Assembly (NCBI GenBank): GCA_019695115.1
Contig: JAIBAP010000060.1
Coordinates: 1 to 36,305 of the forward strand
Source: Caldilineales bacterium
GTDB lineage: Bacteria; Chloroflexota; Anaerolineae; J102
Length of the DNA: 36,305 nt
Reading direction: 5' to 3'
Numbering within the stretch: the stretch's first letter is position 1; each line of letters begins with the position of its first letter. The translations under genes and the position numbers were made by a program. Positions 18,677 to 24,109 of this stretch are shown here, one piece after another. The notes below the pieces were generated by a model. It did no database searches, was not told the DNA's origin, and saw only the letters and a list, made by a program, of their open reading frames with translations.

Positions 18677-18708
18677 ACGCGCCCCGGCTGACCGGGTGTG
18701 TCATTCGT

Positions 18709-18742
18709 CTCGGCGGCAAACTCGATCGAGTTTGCCGCCGAG
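18709..18742. terminator. 34-nt perfect palindrome, probable terminator of the SPFH cassette
   Basis: CTCGGCGGCAAACTCGA and its exact reverse complement are directly joined, giving a hairpin with up to 17 bp less the turn. It follows the SPFH stop by 33 nt. The short AAATTCT after it is not a classical U-tract, so termination is probable but not certain. A protein-binding palindrome is the alternative. Confidence 0.6.
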
Positions 18743-18785
18743 AAATTCTCCCCCCTTTGCACCTGCCCTTTCACCTTTCCAGCCA

Positions 18786-19169
18786 ATGCCCTCCCCCGCT
18801 GACGACGCCCCCAGCCAGGCCCCCTATGCCTGCCACATCTTTCTCTGCGTGGGCGAATACTGCGACCCCCAGCGCCGTAGCCCGGCCCTCTGGCGCACCC
18901 TCAGCCGCGAACTGGGCGATCTGGGAAAATACGACAACCCCCTGCGCGTCAAACGCAGCCTCACCTCGTGCCTGGGTGTGTGCTACAACGGGCCGCTGAT
19001 GGTCGTTTACCCGGAGGGGATCTGGTACCACAGCGTCGATGAGGCCGTGCTTCGGCGCATCATCCACGAGCACCTGGCGGAGGGCCGCCCGGTGGAGGAG
19101 TACATCTTTCATCGCCTGGAAGACAACCCCTTCCTGGATGCCTCCGCCGACGGCGAGGCTGCTGCGTAA
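18786..19169 (+). CDS. (2Fe-2S) ferredoxin domain protein, thioredoxin-like
   Basis: A 127-residue protein of the thioredoxin-like [2Fe-2S] ferredoxin family. Cluster ligands are Cys21-x4-Cys26 ([11 protein letters not shown]) and Cys62-x3-Cys66 ([10 protein letters not shown]). The segments [34 protein letters not shown] are typical of the family, which includes cyanobacterial and clostridial small ferredoxins and the N-terminal domains of NADH dehydrogenase/hydrogenase subunits. The start at 18786 is chosen because a longer extension would read into the palindrome; no clear Shine-Dalgarno is seen. No hydrogenase genes are nearby, so its redox partner is unknown. Confidence 0.85.
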
Positions 19170-19171
19170 GT

Positions 19172-19200
19172 TTGCGCCAGGCCGGGCATTCGGCTATAAT
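19172..19200 (+). promoter_or_regulatory. Promoter of tRNA-Val and probably of the T-box leader
   Basis: TTGCGC (19172-19177), 17 nt, then perfect TATAAT (19195-19200); predicted start near 19207, five nt before the tRNA. Only 26 nt separate the tRNA from T-box stem I and hold no credible promoter. Confidence 0.75.
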
Positions 19201-19211
19201 CGAAAGCTAAT

Positions 19212-19285
19212 GGGTGGTTAGCTCAGGTGGCTAGAGCGCATGCTTGACATGCATGAGGTCACAAGTTCAAGTCTTGTACCGCCCA
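19212..19285 (+). tRNA. tRNA-Val (anticodon GAC)
   Basis: A full 74-nt cloverleaf: acceptor GGGTGGT/ACCGCCC with one G-U pair, D stem GCTC/GAGC, anticodon stem CATGC/GCATG with loop TTGACAT (anticodon GAC, reading GTC and GTT), variable loop AGGTC, T stem ACAAG/CTTGT with loop TTCAAGT, discriminator A. CCA is not encoded. The next element, a T-box leader, begins about 27 nt downstream, apparently within the same transcript. Confidence 0.96.
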
Positions 19286-19311
19286 CTTTTCATCATAAGT
19301 AACACGCTGAT

Positions 19312-19544
19312 CGGGACGAGTAACAGGCGCTGTCATGCCAGAGAGTGGAGGCCACCGGCTGAAAGCCTCCACCATACCAGCCCTGCCAAAACCCCCCGTG
19401 AGTGAAAAGGGGAACGGCCACACGCCCACTAACCTTTTCCGGCTGGCCCCGTTAACGGCCCCCAGAGATGACCGGCAAAGGCCGGTCGAATTGGGTGGAA
19501 CCACGCGGCCCTGCGTCCCAATGGATGGCAGGGCTTTTGTTTTG
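19312..19544 (+). promoter_or_regulatory. T-box riboswitch, threonine-specific (specifier ACC)
   Basis: Stem I is recognisable: base CGGG/CCCG, GAGTAA opposite the specifier loop, CAGG(C)GCTG (19324-19332) paired with CAGCCCTG (19378-19385), the AGAGAG motif (19340-19345) and a terminal hairpin TGGAGGC/GCCTCCA. The specifier loop CCAAAACCC (19386-19394) offers ACC (Thr) at 19391-19393. A stem GAAAAGG/CCTTTTC (19404-19439) and stem III GACCGGC/GCCGGTC (19470-19487) follow. The T-box core GGGTGGAACCACG lies at 19493-19505. The terminator GCCCTGC/GCAGGGC (19508-19534) ends in TTTTGTTTTG. Uncharged tRNA-Thr should allow read-through. The expected target thrS is 1.27 kb downstream, beyond an opposing gene. 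Confidence 0.92.
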
Positions 19545-19588: not shown

Positions 19589-19617
19589 TTGACTTCTTTT
19601 CCCAGTTTAGGTATGAT
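19589..19617 (+). promoter_or_regulatory. Promoter-like sequence after the T-box terminator
   Basis: TTGACT, 17 nt, TATGAT, with predicted start near 19624. Its transcript would run antisense to the gene at 19773-20321 and on towards the small membrane gene and thrS. The stretch 19545-19772 otherwise shows no gene on either strand. Confidence 0.5.
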
Positions 19618-19772: not shown

Positions 19773-20321
19773 TCACAGCAAACGTCGCTCCACTTCCTCC
19801 AGCACCGAGTCGATAGACGATGAACGGTCGCCCCGCCGCTTCGAGGCGCTGCCATGATGACCTTCGGGTGCGAAGCCCGGTCTTCGCTCTGCAGGCCGCT
19901 CGCTCCATGCCGGGGGCATCCAGCCCGGCGCATGGCGGGCCGGATAGGCGGCGTTGCGCGAGTCGAACGTGGCGCTCTCGAGTTGCACCCCGGCCTGCAC
20001 CAGCAGATACTCGGCCCAGCGCGCCTGGCGTTGCTTGACATGGAAATACATGCAGCGGGCGTCGTGTGTGCGACCGAAGATGGCGATGCCGTACTTCTTC
20101 AGCAGCGCCTCGACTTCGTTCAGGCTGTAGGCGCCAGCGCGAGGGATGGCAAAGGTGTGCGTGTTGGTCATGAACAGGCTGCTGACCAGTTCGGCGGCGA
20201 AACCGGCCAGACCGTCCTTGCGGGCCTGACCGTAATCGCCATGTCGCAGCGACATGACCCAGCCTTCGATGCGATCGAGGTAGTTGAGATGGCCGAGAAG
20301 GTCATCGATGATGCCGCTCAT
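19773..20321 (-). CDS. Protein of unknown function under a LexA-type operator
   Basis: I do not recognise the family of this 182-residue protein. The first 115 residues look globular: a helical start with RIEGWVMSLRHGDYGQARKDGLAGFA, then LLKKYGIAIFGRTHDARCMYFHVKQRQARWAEYLL. The remainder is Pro/Arg/Ser-rich and likely flexible, with a short terminal helix (SVLEEVERRLL). No signal peptide or membrane helix is seen. Start: GGAGG four nt before the ATG, and a promoter with an operator palindrome 33 nt upstream. It lies opposite to all its neighbours, between the T-box and thrS. DNA-damage induction is inferred from the operator; the biochemical role is unknown. Confidence 0.75.
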   Translation of the reverse strand: MSGIIDDLLGHLNYLDRIEGWVMSLRHGDYGQARKDGLAGFAAELVSSLFMTNTHTFAIPRAGAYSLNEVEALLKKYGIAIFGRTHDARCMYFHVKQRQARWAEYLLVQAGVQLESATFDSRNAAYPARHAPGWMPPAWSERPAERRPGFAPEGHHGSASKRRGDRSSSIDSVLEEVERRLL

Positions 20322-20353: not shown

Positions 20354-20383
20354 AGTATACAGAACATATGTTCTATTCTGCAA
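20354..20383 (-). promoter_or_regulatory. Promoter with GAAC-N4-GTTC palindrome (LexA/SOS-box type)
   Basis: On the minus strand, TTGCAG (20383-20378), 18 nt, TATACT (20359-20354). The palindrome AGAACATATGTTCT (20361-20374) fills the spacer. It matches the B. subtilis/mycobacterial LexA consensus CGAACRNRYGTTCG in all eight core positions and sits where repressor would block RNA polymerase. Predicted start is near 20347. No lexA gene is in the window. Confidence 0.7.
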
Positions 20384-20473: not shown

Positions 20474-20797
20474 GTGGAAGAGACGATCAGAACTTTTGGC
20501 GAGCGCATTTTCGATATGTCCGGCTACATTGTGTTGGGCCTGGCGCTGCTCGGTCTGGCCGGCTATTTTCAGCGACTGTATGCCAGCGGCAAGAAGAACT
20601 ATGACAAGATGTGGGCGCCGGTTGCCCCCACCTTGGAAGCCAGGCCGTCGCCGATCGATCAAGTCGTCAAGGGTGGGATGGGATGTGTGCAGGCAGTGAT
20701 CGCCATTTTCTTAGTTCTCATTGCTCTTTTCTTGGCCTTCGATGCCATGTTCAATCGCTTCGAGTTTCTCTTCTCCATCCTGAATGGAACCCAATGA
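20474..20797 (+). CDS. Small two-helix membrane protein
   Basis: A 108-residue protein of unknown function. The GTG at 20474 is preferred because AGGAGG (20462-20467) lies six nt before it; the frame is open further upstream with no better signal. One helix at about residues 15-32 (MSGYIVLGLALLGLAGYFQ) and a second at about 73-95 (VQAVIAIFLVLIALFLAFDAM) flank a basic loop with YASGKKNYDKMW. It ends 16 nt before thrS and is probably co-transcribed with it. I can propose no function. Confidence 0.7.
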   Translation: MEETIRTFGERIFDMSGYIVLGLALLGLAGYFQRLYASGKKNYDKMWAPVAPTLEARPSPIDQVVKGGMGCVQAVIAIFLVLIALFLAFDAMFNRFEFLFSILNGTQ

Positions 20798-20813
20798 GTC
20801 TGGCAGGTGCATG

Positions 20814-22637
20814 ATGTCAAGTCAATCCGGTCAATCCGCCGACAGTCCCTACGACGAGTACTATCGTCTTCGCCATTCCGCTGCCCATGTCATGGCGCAG
20901 GCCGTGTTGGAACGCTTCCCTCAGGCCAAGATCGCCATCGGCCCCCCAATCAAGGAGGGGTTTTACTACGATTTCGATCTGGGCCGTGAGGTTGACGGCA
21001 GCCTGCGCACTTTCACGCCCGAAGACCTTGAAGCGATCGAGAAGCGTATGCGACAGATCGTGTCCGGGCGGCATCCCTTTTCCAAGCGCGTCGTTGCAGC
21101 CGACGAAGCGCGGGCCCTGTTCGCCGGGCAACCGTACAAGATCGAGTTGATCGATGGCCTGGCAGCAGGCGGCGTCGATGAATATGGCGAGCGGGTCGAG
21201 GGCGCGGTCGAGATCTCGACCTATCGCCAGGATACGTTCGAGGACCTGTGCCGGGGTCCGCACGTCGAGCACACGGGTCAGATTCCACCGGACGGGTTCA
21301 AGCTGCTGCAGGTGGCCGGCGCCTACTGGCGCGGCGACGAAAAGCGCCCGATGCTCCAACGTATCTACGGCACGGCCTGGAAAAACAAGAAGGAATTGGA
21401 CGCCTATCTTCAGCGTCTGGAAGAAGCGCGGCTGCGCGACCACCGCAAGCTGGGCAAGGAACTGGATCTGTTCAGCACCAACCACGAGATGGTGGGCGGT
21501 GGGCTGATCCTGTGGCACCCCAAGGGCGGGTTGATGCGCTATCTGGCCGAGGAGCATTCCAAGAAGATGCACCTGGAGGGCGGCTACCAATTCGTCTATA
21601 CGCCGCACATCGGGCGTTCGGTGCTTTGGGAAACGAGCGGGCATCTCGGTTTCTACAAGGAGAATATGTACTCGCCCATCGACATCGAGGGCCAGGAGTA
21701 CTATCTGAAGCCGATGAACTGCCCCTTCCACTGCCATATCTTCAAGAGCAGTGTGCGTTCGTATCGCGACCTGCCGATGCGGCTGGCAGAATGGGGGACG
21801 GTGTATCGTTTCGAGCGGTCGGGTGTGTTGCACGGGCTGACGCGTGTGCGCGGGTTCACGCAGGACGACGCCCATCTGTTCTGCTCACCCGAACAAATGC
21901 CAGAAGAGATCGACAAAGTGCTGGCCTTTAGTATTGGCCTGCTGCGTGACTTCGGTTTCGACAAGTTCCAGATGTACCTCAGCACGCGTCCAGCCAAGCG
22001 CGTCGGCGATGAATCGAAGTGGGATGCAGCGGAGTCGGCGCTGCTGAATGCCATCCAGCGTTCAGGCCATCCCTATGCCATCCATGAGGGCGACGGCGCC
22101 TTTTACGGACCCAAGATCGACATCTATGTCACGGACGCGCTGGAACGGCCCTGGCAGCTCAGCACCATCCAGTTCGATTTCAACATGGCAGAGCGTTTCG
22201 AATTGGCCTACGTCGGCGCGGACGGCGGCCAGCACCGGCCCTATATGATCCATCGCGCCCTGATGGGCAGCATGGAGCGTTTCTTTGGCGTCTTGATCGA
22301 ACACTACGGCGGCAATTTCCCGGTCTGGCTGACGCCCGTGCAAGCGAAGGTCATCCCCATCACCAGCGAGCAGAACGACTACGCCGTTCAGGTCGCGGGC
22401 CAGCTGGCAGCGGCAGGGCTGCGGGTCGAGGTCGATGAGGGTGAGGAGCGGATGAACGCCAAGATCCGCAACGCCCAACTGCAAAAAATCCCCTACATGC
22501 TCGTCCTGGGCGGGCAGGAGATGGCAGCCGAGACGGTCAATGTCCGGCTGCGCAGCGGCGAGCGGGCCGGCACGATGTCGGTTGCCGATTTCACAAGCCT
22601 TGTTCAAGAGGCGGTGGCGAAGCGGGTTGCTATCTGA
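20814..22637 (+). CDS. thrS: Threonyl-tRNA synthetase lacking the TGS domain
   Basis: ThrRS charges tRNA-Thr with threonine and edits mischarged serine. The editing domain has His21-x3-His25 (RHSAAHVM) and Cys146-x3-His150 (CRGPH). The catalytic zinc site is Cys303, His354 and His480; the spacings of 51 and 126 residues equal those of E. coli Cys334, His385 and His511. The anticodon-binding domain is complete at the C-terminus. The protein is 608 residues and starts about 20 residues before the editing domain, so the N-terminal TGS domain is absent. ATGATG at 20811/20814: the second start has GCAGGTG four nt upstream. The Thr T-box is 1.27 kb upstream. Confidence 0.95.
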   Translation: MSSQSGQSADSPYDEYYRLRHSAAHVMAQAVLERFPQAKIAIGPPIKEGFYYDFDLGREVDGSLRTFTPEDLEAIEKRMRQIVSGRHPFSKRVVAADEARALFAGQPYKIELIDGLAAGGVDEYGERVEGAVEISTYRQDTFEDLCRGPHVEHTGQIPPDGFKLLQVAGAYWRGDEKRPMLQRIYGTAWKNKKELDAYLQRLEEARLRDHRKLGKELDLFSTNHEMVGGGLILWHPKGGLMRYLAEEHSKKMHLEGGYQFVYTPHIGRSVLWETSGHLGFYKENMYSPIDIEGQEYYLKPMNCPFHCHIFKSSVRSYRDLPMRLAEWGTVYRFERSGVLHGLTRVRGFTQDDAHLFCSPEQMPEEIDKVLAFSIGLLRDFGFDKFQMYLSTRPAKRVGDESKWDAAESALLNAIQRSGHPYAIHEGDGAFYGPKIDIYVTDALERPWQLSTIQFDFNMAERFELAYVGADGGQHRPYMIHRALMGSMERFFGVLIEHYGGNFPVWLTPVQAKVIPITSEQNDYAVQVAGQLAAAGLRVEVDEGEERMNAKIRNAQLQKIPYMLVLGGQEMAAETVNVRLRSGERAGTMSVADFTSLVQEAVAKRVAI

Positions 22638-22717: not shown

Positions 22718-22735
22718 CGGAAGTGGCGCGTCGAT

Positions 22736-22765
22736 TTGGCGTTTTCGAGAGCATTGTGCTATTCT
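22736..22765 (+). promoter_or_regulatory. Promoter of infC-rpmI-rplT
   Basis: TTGGCG (22736-22741), 18 nt, TATTCT (22760-22765) with extended TG at 22757-22758. Start near 22772 leaves a 74-nt leader before the proposed infC start. Confidence 0.55.
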
Positions 22766-22772
22766 CCTCCGT

Positions 22773-22816
22773 CGCAACGGAAGTTGTTGCGATTCTGGTC
22801 GCGCGTGAGCGCGACC
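22773..22816 (+). promoter_or_regulatory. Structured infC leader, two hairpins
   Basis: Hairpin 1: CGCAAC (22773-22778) with GTTGCG (22786-22791). Hairpin 2: GGTCGCGC-GTGA-GCGCGACC (22797-22816), an 8-bp stem with a GNRA-type tetraloop. infC-rpmI-rplT leaders are often bound by L20 or attenuated; which applies here cannot be told by eye. Confidence 0.45.
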
Positions 22817-22845
22817 TCATTTGTACCACTCAAGCGAGGAACACA

Positions 22846-23397
22846 ATCGTTCGACGAGTTGAACAGACATCCCAACAGACAGCGGGCGTTCGCATCAATG
22901 AACGCATTCGCGTCCCCGAAGTGCGAGTCATCGATGAAAATGGCGTGCAGTTGGGGATCATGCCGCCAGCCGAGGCGCTTAGGTTAGCCGTTGCTCGCGA
23001 GTTGGACCTGGTCGAGGTGGCGCCGGGCGCGCAACCGCCCGTCTGCCGTCTGATGAACTTTGGCAAGTATCAATACGAGCAAACGAAGCGCGAACGGCAG
23101 GCGCGGCGGGCGCAGAAGCAGATCGAGGTCAAGGAGGTGCGTCTGCGCCCCAAGACCGGTGATCATGACACCGAAGTGCGGATGCGGCAGGCGCGCAGGT
23201 TCCTGGAGGATGGCAACAAGGTCAAGGTGCGTGTGCGCTTCCGTGGCCGCGAGATTTACCATCCCGAATTGGCGACCGAGATCTTGGCCGAGTTCGCGCA
23301 GCGGCTGGCCGATGTGGGTCAGGTCGAGCAGCAGGCCAATATGGAAGGGCCGAGTATGCTGATGATCATGGCGCCGCTGCCCAGCAAACACAAGTAG
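22846..23397 (+). CDS. infC: Translation initiation factor IF-3, probable ATC start
   Basis: IF3 binds the 30S subunit and enforces correct start-codon selection. The N-domain (RINERIRVPEVRVIDENGVQLGI), linker (YEQTKRERQARRAQKQIEVKEVRLRPKTGDHD) and C-domain (VRVRFRGREI to SMLMIMAPLP) are complete. A GTG at 22723 would give 224 residues but lies upstream of the likely promoter, and its extension is not IF3-like. AGGA (22837-22840) stands five nt before ATC at 22846, giving 184 codons with stop and a normal IF3 length of 183. Non-AUG starts (AUU in E. coli, AUC and AUA elsewhere) are known for infC and serve autoregulation. Confidence 0.9.
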   Translation: MVRRVEQTSQQTAGVRINERIRVPEVRVIDENGVQLGIMPPAEALRLAVARELDLVEVAPGAQPPVCRLMNFGKYQYEQTKRERQARRAQKQIEVKEVRLRPKTGDHDTEVRMRQARRFLEDGNKVKVRVRFRGREIYHPELATEILAEFAQRLADVGQVEQQANMEGPSMLMIMAPLPSKHK

Positions 23398-23749: not shown

Positions 23750-24109
23750 ATGACCCGTATCAAACGCGGCGTGACAACGCACGCCCGCCACAAAAAAGTC
23801 CTCAAATTCACTTCCGGGCACTTTGGCGCCCGCCATCGCCTCTATCGGGTGGCGAATGAATCGATGATTCACGCCCGCGTTTATGCCTACCGCGACCGCC
23901 GCAACCGCAAGCGCGAGTTCCGGCGGCTGTGGATCACCCGCATCAACGCCGCCAGCCGACTGCAGGGCCTGAGCTACAGCCGGCTGATGAACGGCCTCAA
24001 GCGGGCCGACGTCCATCTCGACCGCAAGATCCTGGCTGATCTGGCCGTGCGCGAGCCGCAGGCTTTTGCGGCCGTGGCCGATGTGGCGAAGGTGGCGTTG
24101 AGTTCGTGA
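23750..24109 (+). CDS. rplT: 50S ribosomal protein L20
   Basis: A 119-residue 23S rRNA-binding assembly protein. The basic N-terminal extension [18 protein letters not shown] and the core [28 protein letters not shown], followed by [25 protein letters not shown], are all typical. The start is 14 nt after the rpmI stop. L20 commonly represses its own operon by binding the leader mRNA. Confidence 0.97.

Follow-up and report, generated by a model that had tools for sequence, protein, structure and literature searches.

Why does a threonine-responsive T-box riboswitch lie directly behind a gene for a valine tRNA, and from which promoter is it transcribed? T-boxes are usually regarded as leaders with their own promoter. 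The window analysed here, a stretch of 36,305 nt from a Caldilineales bacterium, is one entire contig of a 5.99-Mb genome, and a preliminary description of its sequence had proposed that tRNA-Val and the T-box share a primary transcript. Our analysis points to the same reading, with a probability of roughly 88%: tRNA-Val(GAC) and the Thr T-box would form one transcription unit read from the tRNA promoter at 19172–19200. More broadly, in many Chloroflexota the Thr T-box before thrS appears to lack a promoter of its own and to be carried on the transcript of an upstream tRNA-Val gene. The features on which this reading rests in the window are the following.

19172–19200, forward strand: predicted promoter of the tRNA-Val/T-box transcript (sequence and consensus match)
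19212–19285, forward strand: tRNA-Val, anticodon GAC (ARAGORN; RF00005, 64.7 bits)
19286–19303, forward strand: junction between tRNA-Val and T-box, without promoter or terminator (promoter scan, terminator scans, gap lengths of relatives)
19298–19543, forward strand: threonine T-box riboswitch (RF00230 match at 19298–19523 plus terminator hairpin and U-run; fold)
19391–19393, forward strand: ACC, the Thr specifier codon, in the specifier loop of stem I (45 linked T-boxes aligned)
19490–19522, forward strand: antiterminator with T-box bulge (sequence, RF00230 alignment, bulge conservation)
19508–19543, forward strand: intrinsic terminator of the T-box (sequence; minimum free energy fold)

The tRNA gene has a recognizable promoter, with the −35 element TTGCGC (19172–19177) separated by 17 nt from the −10 element TATAAT (19195–19200), and transcription is predicted to start at about 19207, 5 nt upstream of tRNA-Val. 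The preliminary description had called this a near-consensus promoter 5 nt upstream of the tRNA; the distance fits the predicted start and the −10 hexamer is perfect, but the −35 hexamer agrees with the consensus at only 3 of 6 positions, so that the wording was generous. Among 47 linked loci, that is, loci with both tRNA-Val and T-box, TATAAT occurs at the equivalent place in 36, the rest having TATACT, TATATT, and similar hexamers, and the −10 sits 8–18 nt (median 12) upstream of the tRNA. A promoter precedes the tRNA in all linked loci with sufficient flanking sequence, and is weak in one. The tRNA itself, the sole tRNA gene with a GAC anticodon found in the genome inventory, ends in A73 followed by CTTTTC, and its CCA is not encoded.

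The identity of the second element rests on several lines of evidence. The RF00230 match aligns the full model (positions 1–219) with 87.3 bits and an E-value of 1.2e-19; this score is below the RF00230 gathering score of 93, and the T-box was found in E-value mode and missed by the default Rfam scan, as many relatives' T-boxes likewise score below that value. The sequence AGTA at 19319–19322 forms the opposite strand of the specifier loop, and the specifier, set in the context AAA-ACC-C in the window and GAAA-ACC-A/C in relatives, is a threonine codon and so matches thrS as the target gene; ACC is kept in the 45 aligned linked T-boxes, except that one row has a gap in place of the third base. 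In the antiterminator, ATTGGG (19490–19495) pairs with CCCAAT (19517–19522), and the conserved bulge UGGAACC (19496–19502) is complementary to the U73-CCA end of tRNA-Thr(GGU). The genome's own tRNA-Thr(GGU) does carry U73, matching UGGA. The terminator consists of GCCCTGC...GCAGGGC followed by TTTTGTTTT and overlaps the 3′ arm of the antiterminator, so that the antiterminator and the terminator (19508–19534 plus U-run) are mutually exclusive by position. On the covariance match, specifier, bulge, and these exclusive structures, we identify the element as a T-box riboswitch, with read-through predicted in response to uncharged tRNA-Thr. The neighboring tRNA-Val was considered as a ligand and rejected, since its anticodon is no match for the specifier, nor its A73 for UGGA.

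The two elements are very close to each other. ARAGORN, RF00005, and RF00230 agree on the order tRNA-Val then Thr T-box that had been noticed from the sequence, and 12 nt separate the end of the tRNA from the start of the Rfam model, or about 19 nt from the outermost stem I pairs. The previously given distance of 26 nt to the base of stem I holds if counted to CGGG at 19312, whereas the covariance search places the start of the element nearer. No sigma70-like promoter was found in the gap by the promoter scan, as had been suspected; the top-scoring pair nearby, TTGACA in the anticodon arm with TCAAGT in the T-loop, would start transcription within the tRNA. In addition, terminator scans of the window identified no terminator between tRNA-Val and the terminator of the T-box, which is the first one downstream of the tRNA. 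When tRNA and T-box are folded jointly, the minimum-energy structure mixes both, which says little on co-transcriptional folding.

The preliminary description had proposed looking for the same junction in relatives, and it is present there. About 20 families of the class share the order tRNA-Val(GAC), Thr T-box, thrS, which is also present in the named strain Longilinea arvoryzae KOME-1 and in one Dehalococcoidia genome. In KOME-1 the gap between tRNA and T-box is 9 nt, and thrS comes immediately behind the T-box. A query with tRNA plus T-box matched 49 of 61 relatives, many of these matches being to the tRNA alone, and a scan of the DNA upstream of thrS from 80 genomes of the class brought the total, including loci found before, to 49 with both elements. 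The gap from A73 to the start of the T-box model is 10–27 nt at 19 of these loci (10 families), 38–51 nt at 14, 75–128 nt at 11, and more than 200 nt at five. A pattern scan of ~85,000 GTDB species genomes returned at least 117 stretches, and among the matches listed, thrS follows on the same strand in 53, whose record titles all name Chloroflexota or one of its subgroups. Outside this phylum (Planctomycetes, Prevotella, Meiothermus, and others), the matches had no thrS downstream and were taken as chance. Because it is conserved across the class, the junction is not a chance adjacency, and, beyond what the preliminary description had claimed for a single locus, its conservation extends to the phylum. 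Individual loci vary. For example, in one Dehalococcoidia sequence (CP070630.1) two copies of tRNA-Val(GAC) both have T-box stem I sequence behind them (L193 and L199), with the full T-box and thrS only at L199, while L193 resembles a truncated copy. In another genome (G055; L030/L068), tRNA-Val(GAC) lies ~110 nt upstream of thrS with a terminator and no detectable T-box. At two loci of one family (f24; L092 and L094), tRNA-Val and T-box are 0.65–1.27 kb apart, with similar sequence just downstream of the tRNA in both and no promoter seen near the T-box by the promoter scan.

The comparison of linked and unlinked loci is the most informative regarding the shared transcript. Our promoter scan scored the sigma70 consensus only, allowed the predicted start to fall within a 34-nt window at the T-box, and counted scores of ≥6.8 as strong. 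For thrS T-boxes not linked to a tRNA, a strong promoter was found within this 34-nt window in 20 of 23 cases and within 75 nt in all 23, mostly TTGACA-16/17-TATAAT with a median score of 8.16 (n = 23), against control windows inside the T-box, where the median was 4.2 and the highest score 5.8. At linked loci with short gaps (≤27 nt), no promoter was found in any of 19; the top score, 6.41, came from invariant tRNA sequence with a start inside the tRNA. With the whole gap scanned, one of the 14 mid-gap loci (38–51 nt) has a promoter (L066). Taken together, 1/33 linked versus 23/23 unlinked T-boxes have a promoter (Fisher p = 8e-15, ignoring phylogeny), and for terminators the picture is complementary: an intrinsic terminator lies within 85 nt of six of the nine tRNA-Val(GAC) genes without a T-box, against 0/19 short-gap loci (p = 2e-4). 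Both p values overstate the significance, since loci from one family do not count as independent. Of the nine tRNA genes, two more (L023, L024) look terminated by eye, with loops longer than the rule permits.

Because unlinked T-boxes have their own promoters and linked ones do not, and because unlinked tRNA-Val genes are usually terminated and linked ones are not, the idea of a shared primary transcript is strongly supported by this comparison, and a common RNA would be the expected product. Four families (f1, f16, f20, f23) contain both unlinked members with a promoter and linked members without one. In a sister genus in the window's own family (L019, L022, L031, L039), the gap of 80–94 nt contains an intrinsic terminator and a near-perfect promoter, and at L045 (f31), where tRNA and T-box are 853 nt apart, a terminator and a perfect promoter are present. 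Linkage is thus widespread, and lineages that have lost it show the sequence change expected. At some loci with gaps of 75–128 nt or more, the junction is not clean and no promoter is recognizable. In most mid-gap loci, a hairpin of 7–14 pairs with no clear U-run stands between tRNA-Val and T-box, and strong gap hairpins were seen at L058, L059, L076, L077, L015, L053, L060, L071, and L103; these mid-gap hairpins are possible insulators or 5′ protectors.

We infer from sequence that a single RNA is made, which enzymes process it, and that antitermination takes place, and the proposed course of events is as follows. Polymerase would start near 19207, pass through tRNA-Val and the short terminator-free spacer, and enter the T-box. 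When tRNA-Thr(GGU) is charged, the RNA would end at the T-box terminator, which would therefore also serve as the terminator of the tRNA-Val gene. When tRNA-Thr is uncharged, its GGU anticodon would bind ACC and its UCCA end the UGGA bulge; the antiterminator would then form and transcription would proceed toward thrS, infC, and rplT. The tRNA would be released by RNase P at its 5′ end and by RNase Z at its 3′ end, so that the T-box RNA would begin near 19286, directly after A73 (19285/19286), and its end would be a processed one instead of a triphosphate. The preliminary description had credited RNase P and RNase Z jointly with creating this end; RNase P would make the 5′ end of the tRNA and drops out of that role, and RNase Z is plausible in this genome because the tRNA-Val has no encoded CCA and an RNase Z homologue is present (307 aa; 277 bits, just under the curated cut-off of 293). 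In about a dozen relatives the CCA is encoded in the tRNA, so another processing route may be needed there.

Downstream of the T-box, the arrangement in the window is less simple than the T-box/thrS pairing suggests.

19773–20321, reverse strand: 182-aa gene oriented opposite to thrS, between T-box and thrS (positional homologues)
20516–20797, forward strand: small ORF of ~93 aa with hydrophobic stretches, directly upstream of thrS (ORF list)
20784–22637, forward strand: thrS, threonyl-tRNA synthetase, presumed T-box target (TIGR00418, 690 bits; Pfam; order in relatives)
22723–23397: infC, after thrS
23750–24109: rplT, after infC

The start of thrS lies 1.24 kb downstream of the T-box terminator, with the opposite gene and the small ORF between, a distance and an intervening gene that the preliminary description had not included. 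The encoded ThrRS has SAD, class II core, and anticodon domains only, with no Pfam match to a TGS domain. The 182-aa gene has no Pfam or NCBIfam match and belongs to no known family, and its homologues occupy the same place in the congeners (G001/G002), in several members of another genus in the family, and in G073 from another family; the small ORF is at the equivalent place in G001, G002, G007, G014, and G016. In five other genomes of the window's family (G003, G005, G008, G009, G018), thrS directly follows the T-box, and in other families DMT-type transporter-like genes (putative, from translations) or other sense genes lie between T-box and thrS. Read-through RNA from the T-box would be antisense to the 182-aa gene. 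The start region of this gene contains GAACATATGTTC (20362–20373), an SOS-box-like (LexA/SOS-like) palindrome that the genome contains at ten sites, and some sites of this type adjoin genes that, from their translations, read like putative ssb, lexA, and recA/imuA. Just downstream of the T-box terminator, at 19589–19617, is a promoter-like TTGACT-17-TATGAT, which could bypass the T-box; the congener G001 has TTGACG-17-TATGAT.

Other sources of the T-box RNA have to be weighed against the tRNA promoter. If the T-box had its own promoter within or overlapping the tRNA gene, either the TTGACA with a −10 in the T-arm or one of a non-sigma70 type, the adjacency would be incidental. The TTGACA in the tRNA is indeed perfect and stands 17 nt from TCAAGT, giving the score of 6.41; however, position 2 of TCAAGT is not the essential A, transcription would begin within the tRNA, and tRNA function dictates the letters of both hexamers. 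Since the unlinked T-boxes of the class use ordinary consensus promoters, a special class of promoter for the linked ones is unlikely, and we consider this explanation very improbable. Hardly any weight falls on the idea that the RNA comes mostly from other starts or from read-through of the ferredoxin-like gene upstream (18696–19169), with the linkage playing a minor part. That gene ends 3 nt before the −35 element, leaving no room for a terminator, but it lies upstream in only one congener, while promoter, tRNA, and T-box are conserved, and the short gaps contain no hairpin with a U-run; a conserved upstream operon was rejected as the source of the RNA for the same reason of distribution.

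A different concern, compatible with co-transcription, is that the T-box may be uncoupled from thrS in this genome and would only terminate the tRNA-Val transcript or make antisense RNA. Both the promoter-like site after the terminator, shared with G001, and the oppositely oriented gene would fit such a role, but the T-box core, specifier, and bulge are intact, and other genomes retain the order T-box, opposite gene, small ORF, thrS, mostly without the promoter-like site. We regard uncoupling as unlikely. Returning to the shared transcript from the tRNA promoter, its widest form would be that, phylum-wide, the T-box terminator decides whether a single tRNA promoter yields tRNA-Val alone or tRNA-Val together with thrS-infC-rplT, that tRNA supply caps synthetase transcription, that the 5′ end of the T-box derives from tRNA processing, and that read-through is here antisense to an SOS-controlled gene. 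This combined proposal is tentative, and we think it rather unlikely to hold as a whole.

In Clostridium, thrS-infC-rpmI-rplT is described under T-boxes (PMC12452182), and for the two Dehalococcoides genomes that it covered, PMC2494555 names only ile and trp T-boxes. In a partial search of the T-box literature, with term searches in PMC2494555, PMC12452182, PMC3766115, PMC7583486, and PMC7778990, no T-box preceded by a tRNA gene came up, and no transcript map of any Anaerolineae species was found in the literature searched. What is unusual in the present locus is that the promoter belongs to the tRNA gene, in a state found in about 20 families and from which sister lineages deviate in expected ways. 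The linked and unlinked lineages provide a natural experiment on riboswitch function from a processed 5′ end, and also on tying tRNA supply to synthetase supply.

Compared with known T-box riboswitches of aminoacyl-tRNA synthetase genes (RF00230; the thrS T-boxes of Bacillota), the element in the window has the same stem I with an AGUA loop, specifier ACC, UGGN bulge, antiterminator/terminator switch, and thrS downstream. It differs in being without its own promoter, in following the gene of a tRNA other than its ligand, and in a 5′ end that is a predicted processing product. The E. coli tRNA-tufB operon produces a tRNA-mRNA dicistronic transcript. As in that operon, a tRNA and a protein gene would share one promoter and be separated by tRNA processing; unlike it, the window has a leader with a conditional terminator between the two, so that the tRNA would always be made and the mRNA on demand. 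Finally, tandem riboswitch leaders (PMC12452182) likewise place two structured RNAs in series upstream of thrS, but in the window the first of the two is a tRNA and not a second sensor.
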